This document shows, one piece after another, positions 6,127 through 55,843 of a stretch of DNA of 64,000 nucleotides. Within the stretch, counting starts at the first letter, position 1. Every line of letters begins with the position of its first letter. A program made the position numbers and the translations under genes. The stretch is from Nocardioides luti (GTDB lineage: Bacteria; Actinomycetota; Actinomycetes; Propionibacteriales; Nocardioidaceae). The stretch spans positions 186,001 to 250,000 of the forward strand of contig NZ_JACKXE010000001.1 in NCBI RefSeq assembly GCF_014212315.1, given 5' to 3'. The notes beneath the pieces were generated by a model. That model ran no database searches. It saw only the letters and a list, made by a program, of their open reading frames with translations, and was not told the origin of the DNA.

Positions 6127-6212
6127 GTCCGGGTGGCGGAATTGGCAGACGCGCTAGCTTGAGGTGCTAGTGCCCGTATTAGGGCGTGGGGGTTCAAGTC
6201 CCCCCTCGGACA
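6127..6212 (+). tRNA. tRNA-Leu (anticodon GAG)
   Basis: 86-nt class II tRNA. The acceptor stem GTCCGGG pairs with CTCGGAC (one G-T), followed by discriminator A; CCA is not encoded. The anticodon loop TTGAGGT gives anticodon GAG, reading CUC/CUU. A long variable arm (TGCCCGTATTAGGGCG) and the T-loop GGTTCAAGTCC confirm leucine-type architecture. A TATGGT box at 6109-6114 could be its -10 element. A strong hairpin terminator follows immediately. Confidence 0.95.
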
Positions 6213-41767: not shown

Positions 41768-42545
41768 GCAGGCCCAGCCAGGCCAGGGCGAGCAGCAGCG
41801 CGAGGAACAGCAGCGACACCGGGTCGGTCAGCCACTCGACGACGGGTGACGTCACGCTGACGAAGCCCAGCGGCGTGTGCACGGCCACGGTCTGCGCGAG
41901 CAGCTTGCCGGGGCGCTGCAGCGTCGTGCCGTAGAGGTCGGCCAGCGAGCCCACGCCGGCCTCGACCGCGTCGACCCCGAGGGCCGGCCCCCGGCTCGCG
42001 GTCCCGACGACGGTGGCGGGCAGCGACGTCGGGCGCGCGACGGTGCGCGGCGCTCCGCCGGCCTGCGCCGGGCGGTGCCGGGCGGCGTGGTGCTTGCCGG
42101 CGTGCTTCTTCGCGCCGTGGTGTCGGCCGCCGTCGCGACCGACGTGGCCCTTGCCCTTGTTCTTGTGGTGGTGCTGGTGGTGGTGCCCGGCCCCCGGCGG
42201 AGACGCGGGCGCCGGCTGGGTGCCGGCCTGACCGGGCGGTGCGGGGTTGCCGGGGCCGTTGCCGGGGCCCGGCCCGTTTCCGTTGCCGTTGCCGTGGCCG
42301 TTCCCGTGGCCGTTCCCGTGGCCGTTCCCGTGGCCCTTGCCGGGACCCTTGTCCGGCCCGTGTCCGGGGCCCTTGCCCGGGCCGTGCCCGTTGCCGTGGC
42401 CACCGCCCGGGCCGTGCCCGTTGCCGTGGCCACCGCCATGGCCGTGCCCGTGGCCCGGACGCGCTTGCGCGAGCGCGGGCCCCCCGACGACCAGCACGAG
42501 TGCGGCGGCGACCGCGACGACTCCCTGTCCCCAAAGACGTGACAT
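41721..42545 (-). CDS. His/Gly-rich surface-type protein with C-terminal membrane helix
   Basis: 274 aa. Signal peptide (VVAVAAALVLVVGGPALAQA), then about 65 residues of GHG/GNGHGPG repeats, a His-rich segment (GAGHHHQHHHKNKGKGH, then RHHGAKKHAGKHHAAR), a low-complexity region, and a C-terminal helix (VSLLFLALLLALAWLGLLIQ) with a short basic tail. It looks like an exported, membrane-held protein; the His clusters could bind metals. No classic LPXTG motif. Same direction as sortase F, 102 bp downstream of it, with three tandem hairpins between. Overlaps the convergent DUF2238 gene by 47 bp. Confidence 0.78.
   Translation of the reverse strand: MSRLWGQGVVAVAAALVLVVGGPALAQARPGHGHGHGGGHGNGHGPGGGHGNGHGPGKGPGHGPDKGPGKGHGNGHGNGHGNGHGNGNGNGPGPGNGPGNPAPPGQAGTQPAPASPPGAGHHHQHHHKNKGKGHVGRDGGRHHGAKKHAGKHHAARHRPAQAGGAPRTVARPTSLPATVVGTASRGPALGVDAVEAGVGSLADLYGTTLQRPGKLLAQTVAVHTPLGFVSVTSPVVEWLTDPVSLLFLALLLALAWLGLLIQMTPPPTYRPRVR
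42270..42470 (-). repeat. Low-complexity GHG/GNGHG coding repeat
   Basis: Short period-12 and period-6 repeats of CCGTGGCCGTTC-like units encode the His/Gly-rich tract. Confidence 0.8.
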
Positions 42546-43301: not shown

Positions 43302-44412
<1,111 letters not shown>

Positions 44413-46822: not shown

Positions 46823-49294
46823 TCAGCGGAGCGGCGCCCGCAGCGTCACCCGCACCCCGAACCGGTCACCCCCGACATCCACCTGGAAGCCACCGGCCTC
46901 CAGCCCGTCGGCGGTGACCGGTTCGTCGCTCCGCAGCCACGCCAGCCCGACCGACGCCCCGACGGTGGCGCCCCACGCGGCGCTGGTGACCTGGCCGCAG
47001 GGGACGCCGTGGCGCAGCAGCAGCTCGCCGCCCCACAGCATCGGTGCGGGGTCCTCGACCGCGAAGGAGACGGCCCGGCGTCGCGGCCCGCCGGCTGCGA
47101 GCGCCTCGCGGTGCGCCGCCAGCGCGGCGCGGCCGAGGAAGTCCTTGTCACCGCGGAGCGCCGTCGCGAAGACGAGGCCCGCCTCGACCGGCGTGACGTC
47201 GGGCGTGAGCTCGCGACCGAACGCGCGGTAGCCCTTCTCGAGACGCAGGGACTCGATCGCGTAGTAGCCGGCCGTGCGCACGCCGAGGTCGGCGCCCTCG
47301 GCGAGCAGCAGGTCGTGGAGCGCGCCGGTGTGCTCGACGGGCACCATCAGCTCCCAGCCGAGCTCGCCGACGTACGTCATCCGGGTCGCGCGCACGCCGA
47401 CACCACCCAGCGTCACCTCGCGGCTGGTGGCGAACGGGAATCCCCCCTCGGAGAGGTCCGCGTCGCCGAGCCGTCCGAGGAGGTCGCGGGAGGCGGGACC
47501 CATCACGCCCAGCACGGCGTAGGCGTCGGTCACGTCGCGGACCTCGGCCGCACCCGCGTGCCGGTCCAGCCAGTCGAGGTCGCGGACGGTCGTGGCCGAG
47601 CTCGAGACCAGCAGGAAGGCCTCGGGGCCGGTGCGGGTGACGGTCAGGTCGGCCTCGTAGGTGCCGCGCGCACTGAGGAAGGGCGTGTAGACGCAGCCGC
47701 CGGTGGCCACGTCCACGTCGGCGGCGCAGACCCACCGGAGACCGGCCAGGGCGTCGGGTCCCTCGACGATGTACTTCGAGAACGACGTCTGGTCGAAGAC
47801 GGCGACCGCCTCACGGGTGGCGCGCTGCTCGGCCACCGACCACGGCAGCCAGGACGGCTTGCCCCAGGCGTAGTCCAGCCGCGCCTCGGCCGGTGACGGG
47901 GCGAAGACGTTGGGCCGCTCCCAGCCCATCCGCGTCCCGAAGACGGCGCCGGACGCGGCGAGCCGGTCGTGCACCGGTGAGCGACGGACCCCGCGCGCTG
48001 TCTGCGGCTCGCGGTTCGGCCACGGCACCGCGTAGTGCAGGCCGAGCACCTCGGCCACCCGGTCGCGCAGCCAGGCGTTGTCGGCGTTGAACGGCGCGAA
48101 GCGGCGGACGTCGACTCCCACCAGGTCGGTCGTCGGCTCCCCCGCGACGATCCACTCCGCGAGTGCCCGGCCCGCGCCGCCGGCCGAGGCGATGCCCACG
48201 GAGTTGAAGCCGGCGCCGACGAAGTAGCCCGCGACCCCCGGCACCTGGCCGAGGAGGAACTGGTTGTCGGGGGTGAAGGACTCGGGCCCGTTGTAGAACT
48301 TCCGGATACCCGTCTCGGCCAGCACCGGGATCCGGTGGACCGCCTGCTCCATCAGCACCGAGAAGTGGTCCCAGTCCTCGTCGAGGAGCTGGAACTCGAA
48401 GGGGTGGGGCAGGTCGTCCGGCGAGCGCCACGGCCGGGCGTGCGGCTCGAAGCCGCCGACGACCAGGCCGCCGGTCTCCTCCTTGAAGTAGGTCCATCCG
48501 TCGGGGTCGCGCATGATCGGCAGGTCCGGGTGCACGCCGGCGACGGGGTCCGTCACGACGTAGAAGTGCTCCGCCGAGTGCAGCGGCACGGTCGCCCCGA
48601 CGAGCTCCCCCAGCGCCTTGGCCCACTGGCCGGCACAGTTCACGACCACCTCGGCCTCGACGTGCCCGAGGTCGGTCCGCACCCCGGTGACGCGGCGGCG
48701 GCCGGCGCCGTCGGTGGTGACGTCGAAGCCGGTGACCCGGCACCGCTCCACGATCCGGGCGCCCTGCTGCCGTGCTCCCCGTGCGAGGGACTGCGTGAGG
48801 TCGGTCGGGTTGACCTTGCCGTCGCCGGGCAGCCAGATCGCACCCAGCACGTCGTCGACCTGCATCGTCGGCCAGAGCTCCTGCGCGCGGTCGGCGCTGA
48901 CCAGCTCGCAGGCCATGTCGTACGCCGTCGCGTTGGCGGCCGTGCGCCGCAGCTGGACCATCCGGTCCTCGGTGCGGGCGACGATCAGCCCGCCGACGTT
49001 GCGGTAGCCGGTGGCGAGACCCGTCTCGGCCTCGAGCCGGGCGTAGAGCTCGGCGGAGTACTGCACCAGCCGGGTCCCGCTCTCGGACGCCCGCAACGGC
49101 CCGACCAGCCCGGCCGCGTGCCAGGTGGTGCCGCACGACAGGCTGCCCTGCTCGAGGAGCACGACGTCGGTCCAGCCGAGTCGGGTCAGGTGGTAGGCCA
49201 CGGAGGCCCCGATCACGCCGCCACCGACGATGACGACCCGCGCCCGGTCGGGGAGGTGGTTTCGAGACGGTTGCTGCGCAACCTCCTCAACCAC
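46823..49294 (-). CDS. FAD-dependent dimethylglycine/sarcosine-dehydrogenase-like protein
   Basis: 823 aa. Residues 18-400: DAO-type FAD domain (VVIVGGGVIGASVAYHL; GTTWHAAGLVG with the His that carries covalent FAD in this family). Residues 430-823: aminomethyltransferase-like (GcvT) tetrahydrofolate domain (VFDQTSFSKYIVEG ... YIESLRLEKGYRAFG-type region, GELLLRHGVPCGQVTSAAWG). It oxidatively demethylates an N-methyl amine and passes the C1 unit to folate; exact substrate (dimethylglycine, sarcosine or other) unknown. No ATG/GTG exists between the FAD motif and a dispersed repeat, so start GTG 49294 lies inside the repeat, which encodes residues 1-13. Confidence 0.85.
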   Translation of the reverse strand: MVEEVAQQPSRNHLPDRARVVIVGGGVIGASVAYHLTRLGWTDVVLLEQGSLSCGTTWHAAGLVGPLRASESGTRLVQYSAELYARLEAETGLATGYRNVGGLIVARTEDRMVQLRRTAANATAYDMACELVSADRAQELWPTMQVDDVLGAIWLPGDGKVNPTDLTQSLARGARQQGARIVERCRVTGFDVTTDGAGRRRVTGVRTDLGHVEAEVVVNCAGQWAKALGELVGATVPLHSAEHFYVVTDPVAGVHPDLPIMRDPDGWTYFKEETGGLVVGGFEPHARPWRSPDDLPHPFEFQLLDEDWDHFSVLMEQAVHRIPVLAETGIRKFYNGPESFTPDNQFLLGQVPGVAGYFVGAGFNSVGIASAGGAGRALAEWIVAGEPTTDLVGVDVRRFAPFNADNAWLRDRVAEVLGLHYAVPWPNREPQTARGVRRSPVHDRLAASGAVFGTRMGWERPNVFAPSPAEARLDYAWGKPSWLPWSVAEQRATREAVAVFDQTSFSKYIVEGPDALAGLRWVCAADVDVATGGCVYTPFLSARGTYEADLTVTRTGPEAFLLVSSSATTVRDLDWLDRHAGAAEVRDVTDAYAVLGVMGPASRDLLGRLGDADLSEGGFPFATSREVTLGGVGVRATRMTYVGELGWELMVPVEHTGALHDLLLAEGADLGVRTAGYYAIESLRLEKGYRAFGRELTPDVTPVEAGLVFATALRGDKDFLGRAALAAHREALAAGGPRRRAVSFAVEDPAPMLWGGELLLRHGVPCGQVTSAAWGATVGASVGLAWLRSDEPVTADGLEAGGFQVDVGGDRFGVRVTLRAPLR

Positions 49295-49477
49295 CGGTGG
49301 GGGCTGCGCAACCTCCTCAACCACCGGTGCGGGCTGCGCAACCTCCTCAACCAGCGGTGCGGGCTGCGCAACCTCCTCAACCAGCGGTGCGGGCTGCGCA
49401 ACCTCCTCAACCAGCGGTGCGGGCTGCGCGGCCCCCTCAACCAGAGGTGCGGGGTGCGCGGCCCCCTCAACCACCGG
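49258..49477. repeat. Dispersed repeat expanded into a 30-bp tandem array
   Basis: A 38-bp element (GGTTTCGAGACGG / TTGCTGCGCAACC / TCCTCAACCACC) at 49258-49295 runs into six 30-bp units (49274-49453) and a partial seventh, each CTGCGCAACCTCCTCAACCA plus a variable CGGTGCGGG. The last units differ (GCGCGGCCCCC). In the dehydrogenase frame they read VEEVAQPAPL. The kinase-like gene ends inside the seventh unit. Confidence 0.9.
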
Positions 49478-50384
49478 AGGTCACCTCTTCCAGGAGCCGT
49501 TCGAGGTCGGGGCTGCGGAAGGTCGCGGCGGCCTTGTCGAAGCGCTCCTGCCCCCACGCGAGGAAGTCGAAGTCCAGGTCGCTGGCCGACGCCTGGATCG
49601 CGCCCCACAGCGACCAGCCGTACTGCGACGCGAGCGCCTGGAGCCGGACCCGGGCCAGGTCCCGGCGGGTCTCGCGGCCGAAGTAGCAGGCGGTCAGCTC
49701 GGCCACCTGGTCGTCGTCCAGCTCGCACTCGGTGGCCGTGTTGCCCAGCTCGAAGGCGGGGTCGTTGTTGCCGCTGTACTCGTAGTCGATCAGCCAGAGC
49801 CTGCTCCCGTCGTCGACGATGTTGCCGGCGAGCAGGTCGTTGTTGCACGGCACGCTCGTCGGTGCGTCCACGGCGAGAGCCGCCGCGACCCGCTGCCAGG
49901 CCGCCTCGTGGTCGTCGTACCCCGCGAAGAGCGCGTAGCCGCGCTCGGCGACGGTGCGCCGGTAGGCCGTGCGGCGCCGCACCATGTCGAAGTCGCCGTG
50001 GAAGCGCGGACCCGCGTGCAGGCGCCGGCAGGCCTCGGCCACCCGCGGGACGTTGCCCGGCACCGCGAAGCTGGCGTTGTCGAACGTCATCCCGTCGAGG
50101 TAGGCGATCACGAGGACCCCGAGGTCCGGGCGGTAGTCCACGACGGGCGCCCCGACGCCGGCCGCCGCGGCGGCGAGCGTGTTGAGGTGCTCGGCGTCGC
50201 GGTCGATCCCGAGCAGCGCGGCGTCGCCGCGGAAGCGGCGTACGACGTGGTCGCCGACGGGCGTGGTGACGTGGAGGTTCTGGTTCGTGAGGCCGCCGGG
50301 GAGCTCGACCACGGTGCGTGGATGGCCCTGCAGGACCGGGATCCGGTCCAGCAGGGCCTCCAGCTCGGCGTGCGGCTGGGACAC
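49467..50384 (-). CDS. Choline/ethanolamine-kinase-like phosphotransferase
   Basis: 305 aa from GTG 50384, 5 bp after the permease stop. Aminoglycoside-phosphotransferase fold: ELPGGLTNQNLHVTTPVGDH (ATP loop), VVRRFRGD (Lys/Arg position), PCNNDLLAGNIVDDGSRLWL (Brenner-type catalytic loop, with N replacing the usual H in HND) and IDYEYSGNNDPAFELGN, the hallmark of choline/ethanolamine kinases. Probably phosphorylates an amino alcohol. Co-transcribed with the permease; its 3' end enters the repeat array, after which the dehydrogenase gene follows. Confidence 0.87.
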   Translation of the reverse strand: MSQPHAELEALLDRIPVLQGHPRTVVELPGGLTNQNLHVTTPVGDHVVRRFRGDAALLGIDRDAEHLNTLAAAAAGVGAPVVDYRPDLGVLVIAYLDGMTFDNASFAVPGNVPRVAEACRRLHAGPRFHGDFDMVRRRTAYRRTVAERGYALFAGYDDHEAAWQRVAAALAVDAPTSVPCNNDLLAGNIVDDGSRLWLIDYEYSGNNDPAFELGNTATECELDDDQVAELTACYFGRETRRDLARVRLQALASQYGWSLWGAIQASASDLDFDFLAWGQERFDKAAATFRSPDLERLLEEVTSGG

Positions 50385-50389
50385 GCGAG

Positions 50390-51955
50390 TCAGCTGTCGA
50401 ACGCCTCGAGGACGGTCTCGTCGATGGTGTGCTTGGGGCCGGTGAACCACTTCTTGGCCGACACCTGCCACCAGATGGCGAGGACGATCAACGTGCCGAA
50501 CGTCAGGATCGGCGCGTAGTTCACGCTGCTCCAGGCGAAGTCGGCGTTGCCGGGCACGCCGGTCGGCGTGAACGGCAGGATGAAGTAGACGGAGATGACG
50601 GCGATCTCGGCGACCGCGATGAGGTTCATCCACTTGTACTTGCGGCCGTTGTGCCACGAGCCGGGCTCGAAGTCGTCGCCGAGCCGCCAGCGCAGGAAGA
50701 TCGGCACCGCGAAGGCGAGGTAGAGCCCGATGACCGCGACCGAGACGACCGCGAGGAAGGCGACCGGGAGCCCGTTCACGCTGACGAGGGCCGGGGCGGT
50801 GATGACCGCGCCGACGACCGCGCAGAGCAGGACGGCGTTGGTGGGGACCTTCGTCTTCGGGTTGACCTTCGACCAGATCTTCGAGCCGGGGATCGCGCCG
50901 TCCCGGCTGAAGGCGAAGGTCATCCGCGAGCAGCTGGTCATGCAGGCGGCGGTGCAGAAGAGCTGGCCGGCCGTGGAGATGAGCAGCACCAGGAAGTGCC
51001 AGCCCTCGGGCAGCGCCTGGCCGAAGATCACGTCGACGCTGCCGCCGCCGGCGGAGACGCCCTCGGGGTCCTGGACCGCGAACAGGAAGGCGAGCAGCAG
51101 GACGTAGCCGCCGATCGCGGAGTAGGCGATGGAGCGCCAGATGCCCTTGGCGGCGGCCTCCGAGGCGGCCGAGGTCTCCTCGGACAGGTGGGCGGAGGCG
51201 TCGAAGCCGGTGATGGTGTACTGCGTCAGCAGCAGCCCGAGCGGCAGCACGAGGAACCAGAACTTCAGCCCGGAGGTCTGGTTGTCGTTGAAGCCGGAGT
51301 TGTTGACCTCGTGGGTGAACACCCAGCTGAGCGCCTGGTGGGTGTCCGGGATGAACACCAGGACCAGGATCACGATCGCGGCGCCGGCGACGTGCCACCA
51401 CACGGAGATGTTGTTGACGATCGCCATCAGGTGCCCGCCGAACACGTTCAGGCCCGCGGCGATGACCAGGATGATCAGGAAGATGACGTAGATCCGGGTC
51501 AGGCTGTAGCCGTCGGCCCAGCCCGAGGAGACCGTCGTCAGCGTCAGGTCGACGAACGTCGCGGCGCCGTACGCCACCGACGCGGTGACCGCGAGCAGCC
51601 CGATGAGGTTGAGCCAGCCGGTGAAGAACCCGGCCGCCGGACCGCCCATCTTGGCCGCCCACCAGTAGATGCCGCCCGAGGTCGGGTACGCCGACACGAG
51701 CTCCGACATCGTGAAGCCGATGATCAGGATGAACAGCGAGATGATCGGCCAGCCCCAGGAGATGGCGATCGGTCCGCCGTTGTTCCAGCCCTGGTAGAAG
51801 GTCGTGAAGCAGCCCGCCAGGATCGAGATGATCGAGAACGAGATGGCGAAGTTGGAGAAGCTCGACCAGGTGCGGTTGAGCTCCTGCGAGTAGCCGAGAC
51901 GGGCGAGGTGCTTCTCGTCCTCGGACAGCTCTTTCGGTTCGGTTGCTTCGGGCAT
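50390..51955 (-). CDS. APC-superfamily amino acid/amine permease
   Basis: 521 aa with about 12 membrane helices. The start LARLGYSQELNRTWSSFSNF and AISFSIISILAGCFTTFYQG are typical of the amino-acid/GABA/choline permease group (ACT family); FTMSELVSAYPTSGGIYWWA and GFDASAHLSEET (the conserved A-H-x-S-E-E-T) are also present. Expected substrate is an amino acid, polyamine or amine. First gene of the minus-strand cluster permease, phosphotransferase, dehydrogenase, and divergent from the GntR regulator. Confidence 0.9.
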   Translation of the reverse strand: MPEATEPKELSEDEKHLARLGYSQELNRTWSSFSNFAISFSIISILAGCFTTFYQGWNNGGPIAISWGWPIISLFILIIGFTMSELVSAYPTSGGIYWWAAKMGGPAAGFFTGWLNLIGLLAVTASVAYGAATFVDLTLTTVSSGWADGYSLTRIYVIFLIILVIAAGLNVFGGHLMAIVNNISVWWHVAGAAIVILVLVFIPDTHQALSWVFTHEVNNSGFNDNQTSGLKFWFLVLPLGLLLTQYTITGFDASAHLSEETSAASEAAAKGIWRSIAYSAIGGYVLLLAFLFAVQDPEGVSAGGGSVDVIFGQALPEGWHFLVLLISTAGQLFCTAACMTSCSRMTFAFSRDGAIPGSKIWSKVNPKTKVPTNAVLLCAVVGAVITAPALVSVNGLPVAFLAVVSVAVIGLYLAFAVPIFLRWRLGDDFEPGSWHNGRKYKWMNLIAVAEIAVISVYFILPFTPTGVPGNADFAWSSVNYAPILTFGTLIVLAIWWQVSAKKWFTGPKHTIDETVLEAFDS

Positions 51956-55648: not shown

Positions 55649-55684
55649 GGTCTCGATACGGTCGCTGCGCGACCTACTCGACCA
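55649..55684. repeat. Dispersed repeat copy A (divergent)
   Basis: GGTCTCGATACGG, TCGCTGCGCGACC, TACTCGACCA: a divergent copy of the 38-bp family, same orientation as the copy at 49258. Confidence 0.75.
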
Positions 55685-55692
55685 GCGAGATC

Positions 55693-55730
55693 GGTGGTCG
55701 AGGAGGTTGCGCAGCAACCGTCTCGAAACC
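55693..55730. repeat. Dispersed repeat copy B
   Basis: 38 bp, GGTGGTCGAGGAGG then TTGCGCAGCAACCG and TCTCGAAACC; its reverse complement differs from 49258-49295 at one base. Confidence 0.85.
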
Positions 55731-55780
55731 ACCCGCCCAACGAAACCGGTCGCACCGCGACCACCCGCTCAACGACAACC

Positions 55781-55819
55781 GGTGGTTGAGGAGGTTGCGC
55801 CAGCAACCGTCTCGAAACC
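55781..55819. repeat. Dispersed repeat copy C
   Basis: 39 bp, GGTGGTTGAGGAGG, TTGCGCCAGCAACCG, TCTCGAAACC; one extra C relative to copy B. Ends 24 bp before the SDR gene. Confidence 0.85.
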
Positions 55820-55843
55820 ACCTTCCCCCGAGAGGATCCATCA

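Follow-up and report, generated by a model that had tools for sequence, protein, structure and literature searches.

A dispersed REP-like palindrome at a kinase-dehydrogenase stop/start overlap in Nocardioides luti and its recurrence at the same junction in other species

REPs of the GTAG/CGTC type have been described near gene ends, inside open reading frames (ORFs) and at the N-termini of ORFs, and they are also described as supplying stop codons (PMC3733652). According to the same account, many of the copies that lie at an ORF N-terminus in other bacteria are presumed to be untranslated (PMC3733652), which counts against translation of the array described below. REPs are associated with RAYT transposases (PMC2817692), and in E. 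coli ribosomes stall at REPs that are located no more than 15 nt from a stop codon (cited in PMC12306157). A second comparison is offered by the MIRUs, which insert at start codons with coupling being kept; the same source lists 8-nt overlaps as an enriched arrangement in prokaryotes and cites one study in which coupling declines with longer overlaps (PMC12548453). Finally, the RPEs of Rickettsia are in-frame palindromes in protein genes, including their N-termini, and some of them are expressed in vivo (PMC3733652). REPs within ORFs and stop codons supplied by REPs are already in print. Within the open-access literature, we found nothing on point for REPs in Nocardioides or Actinobacteria, nor an account of an actinobacterial palindrome family, of the double use of a palindrome end as stop and start or of the repeated filling of one junction.

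Here, we analysed a window of 64,000 nucleotides from Nocardioides luti (contig NZ_JACKXE010000001.1, positions 186,001 to 250,000; all positions given below are those of the window unless stated otherwise), in which three genes follow each other on the minus strand. An amino-acid permease gene (50390-51955) is the first in the row and is followed by an APH/choline-kinase-like gene (49467-50384), which lies directly before a dimethylglycine-dehydrogenase-like gene (46823-49474; 883 aa counted from GTG 49474). A domain search of the dehydrogenase gave the order DAO, FAO_M, GCV_T and GCV_T_C, which is dimethylglycine dehydrogenase/sarcosine oxidase-like, and none among the NCBIfam matches listed for it (25 families) reached the cut-off. 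A tandem array with a period of 30 nt, 6.8 copies and 94% matches covers positions 49273-49477. The array ends, on the side of the dehydrogenase core, with a complete palindrome of 41 nt, GGTGGTTGAGGAGGTTGCGCAGCAACCGTCTCGAAACCACC (49255-49295, minus strand), which is a member of a dispersed family, and the two units farthest from it are the most diverged ones in the window array. The preliminary description of this stretch had reported that a dispersed repeat covers the beginning of the dehydrogenase gene, which is borne out: the units are read in the dehydrogenase frame as VVEEVAQPAPL-like repeats with no stop codon, and the array reaches the 3' end of the kinase gene, the TGA stop codon of which (49469-49467) lies within the palindrome-like sequence GGTGGTTGA that begins the first unit at 49475. 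A search of the window with Rfam at gathering thresholds returned one tRNA (6127-6212) and no match at the array, and a known structured RNA family was therefore rejected as the identity of the array.

To place the array in an evolutionary context, the junction was compared across loci from Nocardioides and relatives, of which 94 were listed and 21 were left out as they had no adjacent kinase match, giving 73 distinct loci with the kinase adjoining the dehydrogenase. An in-frame start that overlaps the kinase stop is present in 58 of the 73 loci, and in 34 it is found at -8 (one locus may have several such starts). In the usual loci with an 8-nt overlap, 31 nt separate the kinase stop from the FAD motif (GxGxxG; L159 is without the motif), compared to 241 nt in the window. 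The excess of 210 nt equals 7 x 30 nt, and the window sequence can be written as the empty site plus an in-frame insert behind the dehydrogenase start, between GTGGTTGA and CCTCCCC (49466-49257, minus strand), which is missing from the 31-nt orthologous junctions. We conclude that GTG 49474 is probably the ancestral start codon and that the repeat array is an in-frame insert behind it that is probably translated. One locus, L163 (a Nocardioides ungokensis record), has apparent frame breaks in the dehydrogenase and yielded no usable start; its frame seems to be broken near the front, and a pseudogene or sequencing errors are possible.

The palindrome has the left end GGTGGTTGAGG and the right end CTCGAAACCACC. 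In its own genome (4.5 Mb in 3 contigs, assembly 100% complete), 58 matches with up to 3 mismatches were found compared to 0 in a reversed-pattern control, confirming that the repeat is dispersed. A slightly degenerate form has 65 copies there with up to 2 mismatches and is present in 81 of the 215 Nocardioides genomes searched. The full palindrome folds with -23.4 kcal/mol (z -4.65), a value that no shuffle equalled. Of 61 copies, 37 have T-A and 24 have C-G at one stem pair, which is never mismatched; with this compensatory pair, the palindrome is a conserved hairpin. For the sequence string CTCCTCAACCACC, no published account was found in the open-access literature. PF01797, the Y1/RAYT transposase family, has 0 matches in the own genome, with 5 of 14 control genomes being positive, and mobilisation of the RAYT type was rejected on the basis of this result.

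The same junction carries palindromes in other species. In G195 (locus L073) and G160 (L081), the palindrome of the window is present and ends at the identical nucleotide, accompanied by other palindromes; the inserts of 96 and 252 nt, respectively, are in frame and open, and the palindrome family has 10 copies in G195 and 9 in G160. G187 carries a 39-nt in-frame insert that belongs to another palindrome family, of which this genome has 16 copies (up to 3 mismatches, insert included). At the junctions of G032 and G163, a fresh GTG follows the kinase stop, with palindromes in between, and the family found at the G032 junction has 4 copies in that genome, the junction copy included. Together with the window, clear palindrome-filled junctions amount to 6 of the 73 loci; four additional loci (L054, L055, L071 and L119) have short junction inserts that are doubtful. 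Trees of the kinase and dehydrogenase proteins were calculated with 62 rows and then with 47, after distant and duplicate rows had been removed. In the tree, the window is placed apart from G195 and G160, and forcing the three together was rejected (p-AU 3.4e-5, 47 rows), although this grouping was chosen for the test after the first tree had been seen. On this tree, which is a gene tree and not a species tree, at least 5 changes are required to explain the six clear cases. Separate filling of the junctions is one way to account for this pattern; alternatively, the short junction alone may have been exchanged between species.

In order to see where the palindrome is located elsewhere, we surveyed 39 stretches of the own genome, which contain 47 clusters of the palindrome left half (up to 3 mismatches). 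The palindrome starts no more than 15 nt past a stop codon on the same strand in 11 of the 47 clusters and 16-20 nt past it in 2 more, 10 clusters are inside predicted ORFs and 18 fit no listed class. When the ORF and element-stop classes are excluded, 11 of 31 clusters begin no more than 15 nt past a same-strand stop, compared to 8.2% of intergenic position-orientations (p 2e-5), a control that was drawn from one 64-kb window using a crude gene finder. The orientation is uneven: in 17 of the 47 clusters it is the left end that lies at a stop, and in 5 the right end lies no more than 20 nt from an opposing stop. At some genes, the element itself provides the stop codon. For an acetaldehyde dehydrogenase gene, GGTGGTTGA (once GGCGGTTGA) forms the in-frame stop in 7 of its best 30 orthologous loci (L215, L225, L226, L227, L231, L234 and L244, own genome counted), where palindromes of several families come next, and for a carbamate-kinase-like gene, an element-supplied stop was found in 3 of the best 30 loci (L245, L247 and L249, own genome counted); judged by eye, the remaining orthologous loci of both genes have plain stops. 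Three further genes of the own genome (L186, L198 and L202) have a stop supplied by the element. At a third gene with a TGATG-type end junction, in-frame palindromes of several families lengthen the C-terminus in 6 of 30 loci (L275, L279, L281, L291, L292 and L294; by eye), and the own-genome copy of this gene carries an array with a period of 33. Palindromes of the same and of a related family are also present between two genes at 55649-55830 (C1:241649-241830), the second such site of the window. In L182, a predicted ORF on the minus strand near position 597 has several palindrome halves in a row and may be a gene that repeats have heavily extended, or no gene.

It is quite possible, if short of probable, that this distribution arose by untargeted insertion anywhere in the genome, with survivors remaining only where a gene ends or where a tolerant junction such as this one took up the element in frame. 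The clusters scored within ORFs fit this explanation, as the family is not restricted to gene ends, and so do the frame-breaking inserts of G032 and G163, which come with a fresh start as would be expected from selection. On the other hand, the excess of clusters directly behind stop codons, their uneven orientation and the presence of one palindrome at the identical nucleotide in lineages that are separate on the tree argue against insertion at random, but even these points are still compatible with selection and orientation-dependent tolerance.

Independent of how the palindrome arrived at the junction, the reading of the array as a translated insert depends on the start codon of the dehydrogenase. 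Going upstream, this reading frame stays open until TGA 49483 and contains three GTG codons ahead of the FAD motif, at 49474 (49472-49474), 49324 (49322-49324, within the array, located by frame scan and duplex energy) and 49294 (49292-49294). The preliminary description had named GTG 49294 as the first usable start, supplied by a repeat copy. This part is not supported, as 49294 is the third in-frame GTG, its Shine-Dalgarno sequence is weak and many orthologues have a normal start at the kinase-stop overlap and no repeat, an outcome that the preliminary description itself had named as refuting it; GTG 49294 was therefore rejected as the start. It is correct that ATG and GTG are missing in frame between GTG 49294 and GTG 49216, the latter being inside the FAD motif. 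GTG 49474 shares the 8 nt GTGGTTGA with the kinase stop and matches the start position of the orthologues with an 8-nt overlap. A Shine-Dalgarno-like GAGGTGA (49481-49487), identified by sequence and duplex energy, is located 6 nt 5' of it. Duplex energies, calculated with a 16S tail, are -11.5 kcal/mol at GTG 49474 and -3.2 kcal/mol at both 49324 and 49294, where the pairing lies 15 nt away. Values of -6.8 and -10.2 kcal/mol were obtained for GTG 49216 and GTG 49201, which are in or behind the FAD motif. A crude codon-score gene finder chose GTG 49216, which counts against a start at 49474; this choice can be attributed to the low score of the repeat codons. Due to the 8-nt overlap position and the strong Shine-Dalgarno sequence, and since 49216 and 49201 are in or behind the FAD motif, the start is most likely GTG 49474.

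Translation could also begin inside the array, at GTG 49294 or 49324, in which case the upstream units would be an untranslated leader. Both codons are in frame, a GTG equivalent to 49294 is present in L073 and L081, and the N-terminal REPs of other bacteria, which may be untranslated (PMC3733652), would provide a precedent. However, we consider such a start unlikely: in addition to the weak and distant Shine-Dalgarno pairing in the window, the equivalent GTG reaches only -5.7 and -5.8 kcal/mol in L073 and L081, compared to -12.8 and -10.6 kcal/mol at the overlapping GTG, which both loci have kept. In L081, an ATG with -9.3 kcal/mol follows the overlapping GTG at a distance of three codons. 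Moreover, all four inserts behind an overlapping start (210, 96, 252 and 39 nt) are open in frame, which a start inside the array does not require.

With a start at GTG 49474, the insert is predicted to add 70 residues to the dehydrogenase N-terminus; the added part reads VVEGAAHPAPLVEGAAQPAPL and so on up to QQPSRNH and is followed by the conserved LPDRARVVIVGGG. Judging from its composition, the tail would be disordered. Differences between the units of the window array are mostly non-synonymous (by eye), and there is therefore no sign of selection on the tail sequence. We agree with the preliminary description that a change in copy number would alter the N-terminus. Its title, that a dispersed repeat supplies the start codon, survives in a weaker sense: GGTGGTTGA, which holds GTG 49474 and the kinase stop, is also the left end of the palindrome, and these 9 nt may be ancestral or may have been overwritten by the element.

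Instead, the main role of the palindrome might be at the RNA level, where it would slow ribosomes or protect the mRNA between kinase and dehydrogenase, with the tail being a by-product. The strong hairpin of the full palindrome, the stalling of E. coli ribosomes by REPs within 15 nt of a stop codon (cited in PMC12306157) and the position of the first array unit, which begins at the kinase stop, are in favour of such a role. Yet the partial 30-nt unit folds no better than shuffles (-6.6 kcal/mol, z 0.67) and the sole full hairpin lies approximately 170 nt past the kinase stop, making this an improbable main function. An assembly error in the presence of the array or its unit number is very improbable, as, even though tandem arrays misassemble easily, the assembly is 100% complete in 3 contigs and similar junction inserts are present in other genomes.

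The insert shares its form with other arrays of the genome. Eleven own-genome arrays (L177, L181, L187, L188, L190, L191, L199, L204, L209, L211 and L214) consist of partial left halves followed by one full palindrome; several full copies are present in the arrays of L182 and L212, and none was scored in L194. MIRU copies occur in tandem, as do the array units here. Depending on the locus, the period is 30, 33, 34, 35 or 36. It is divisible by 3 in 3 of 3 arrays that are read as part of an ORF compared to 3 of 10 others (p 0.07), a test that left out the ORF-scored L194 (period 30, second unit diverged, no full copy scored), which would join the same side; a preference of ORF-read arrays for periods divisible by 3 is suggestive only. 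The tails of the partial units look similar at several of these 11 loci (CCGGCCCGCCC-like), although they are outside the palindrome, as if the arrays had spread ready-made or had been copied from a common partial form. L212 (C2:138406-139038) is a tandem row of five composite blocks, each about 140 bp long and made up of a partial unit, one full palindrome and a palindrome of a second family. The window contains additional arrays at 42249-42455 and 44041-44254, with periods of 6 to 30 bases (GCCGTG, GCCGTT, TTGTCC).

Based on these observations, we propose that a dispersed REP-like palindrome came to sit in the stop/start overlap of the kinase and dehydrogenase genes. Two reasons for settling there are conceivable: the overlap GTGGTTGA resembles the left end of the palindrome, or the palindrome targets stop codons. 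As GTGGTTGA matches the left end of the palindrome, the kinase stop and the dehydrogenase start would have been kept in the same 8 nt, and the palindrome body would have contributed 30 nt (10 codons) in frame directly behind the start. The left part of the palindrome would then have multiplied in tandem, reaching 7 x 30 nt. In the present-day arrangement, the ribosome would stop at the kinase TGA, restart at GTG 49474 with the help of the old Shine-Dalgarno sequence and translational coupling, and read the array. The 8-nt overlap may couple weakly, since at least one study cited in PMC12548453 found coupling to drop as overlaps get longer. The product would be an enzyme with a low-complexity N-terminal tail of about 70 residues ahead of the FAD-binding strand, which might have an effect on the cell.

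One might speculate further, and we do so only tentatively, that Nocardioides harbours a superfamily of palindromes in which hairpin cores can be exchanged within a common GGTGGTTGAG...CTCGAAACCACC frame, and which actively targets stop codons and stop/start overlaps. The end of such an element would itself spell a stop (TGA) and a start (GTG) and could replace gene-end signals without breaking genes; one junction would be hit repeatedly across species, tandem growth of the left half would vary the tails, and a mobiliser of unrecognised type would move the elements. Taken together, our analysis corrects the proposed gene start, and the empty sites of the relatives show in what way an overlap of two genes can take up a dispersed palindrome with both frames intact. 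Automatic gene calls in Nocardioides may misplace starts and ends at such repeats. Recurrence at one junction and at the stops of other genes provides a testable case for a mobile palindrome that targets translation signals, and it is these repeated landings on gene-end signals that deserve to be followed.

Among the described systems, the REPs resemble the palindrome in being short, dispersed stem-loop palindromes with many copies per genome (65 here with up to 2 mismatches) and in their habits: they are mostly placed near gene ends, sometimes in ORFs, with ends that supply stops (PMC3733652), and the palindrome here is enriched behind stop codons, with 10 of its 47 clusters inside predicted ORFs. 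In contrast to REPs, it has no GTAG or CGTC head, its left end in the own-genome clusters being GGTGGTTGAGG (by eye), its host is an actinobacterium and no PF01797 match was obtained in the own genome; furthermore, its end combines a TGA stop with a GTG start, and its half-elements form tandem arrays. With the MIRUs, it shares the character of a short, mobile-looking actinobacterial repeat at a start codon or overlap (PMC12548453); position and frame agree at our locus, and coupling would be expected to do so. Compared by description, a MIRU carries a small ORF with a -4 nt coupling to the next gene (PMC12548453), whereas here the 8-nt overlap comes from the element end and the array would join the downstream protein. 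The Rickettsia RPEs (RPE-1 and others) are likewise in-frame palindromes inside protein genes, N-termini included (PMC3733652), but, again compared by description, they belong to an unrelated host group, and at our locus tandem half-elements lie at a gene overlap. Because the habits are shared and the GTAG head and a PF01797 match are lacking, we read the palindrome family as REP-like and reminiscent of MIRUs but as a member of neither, one that takes up positions at gene ends and coupled junctions while leaving translation intact.
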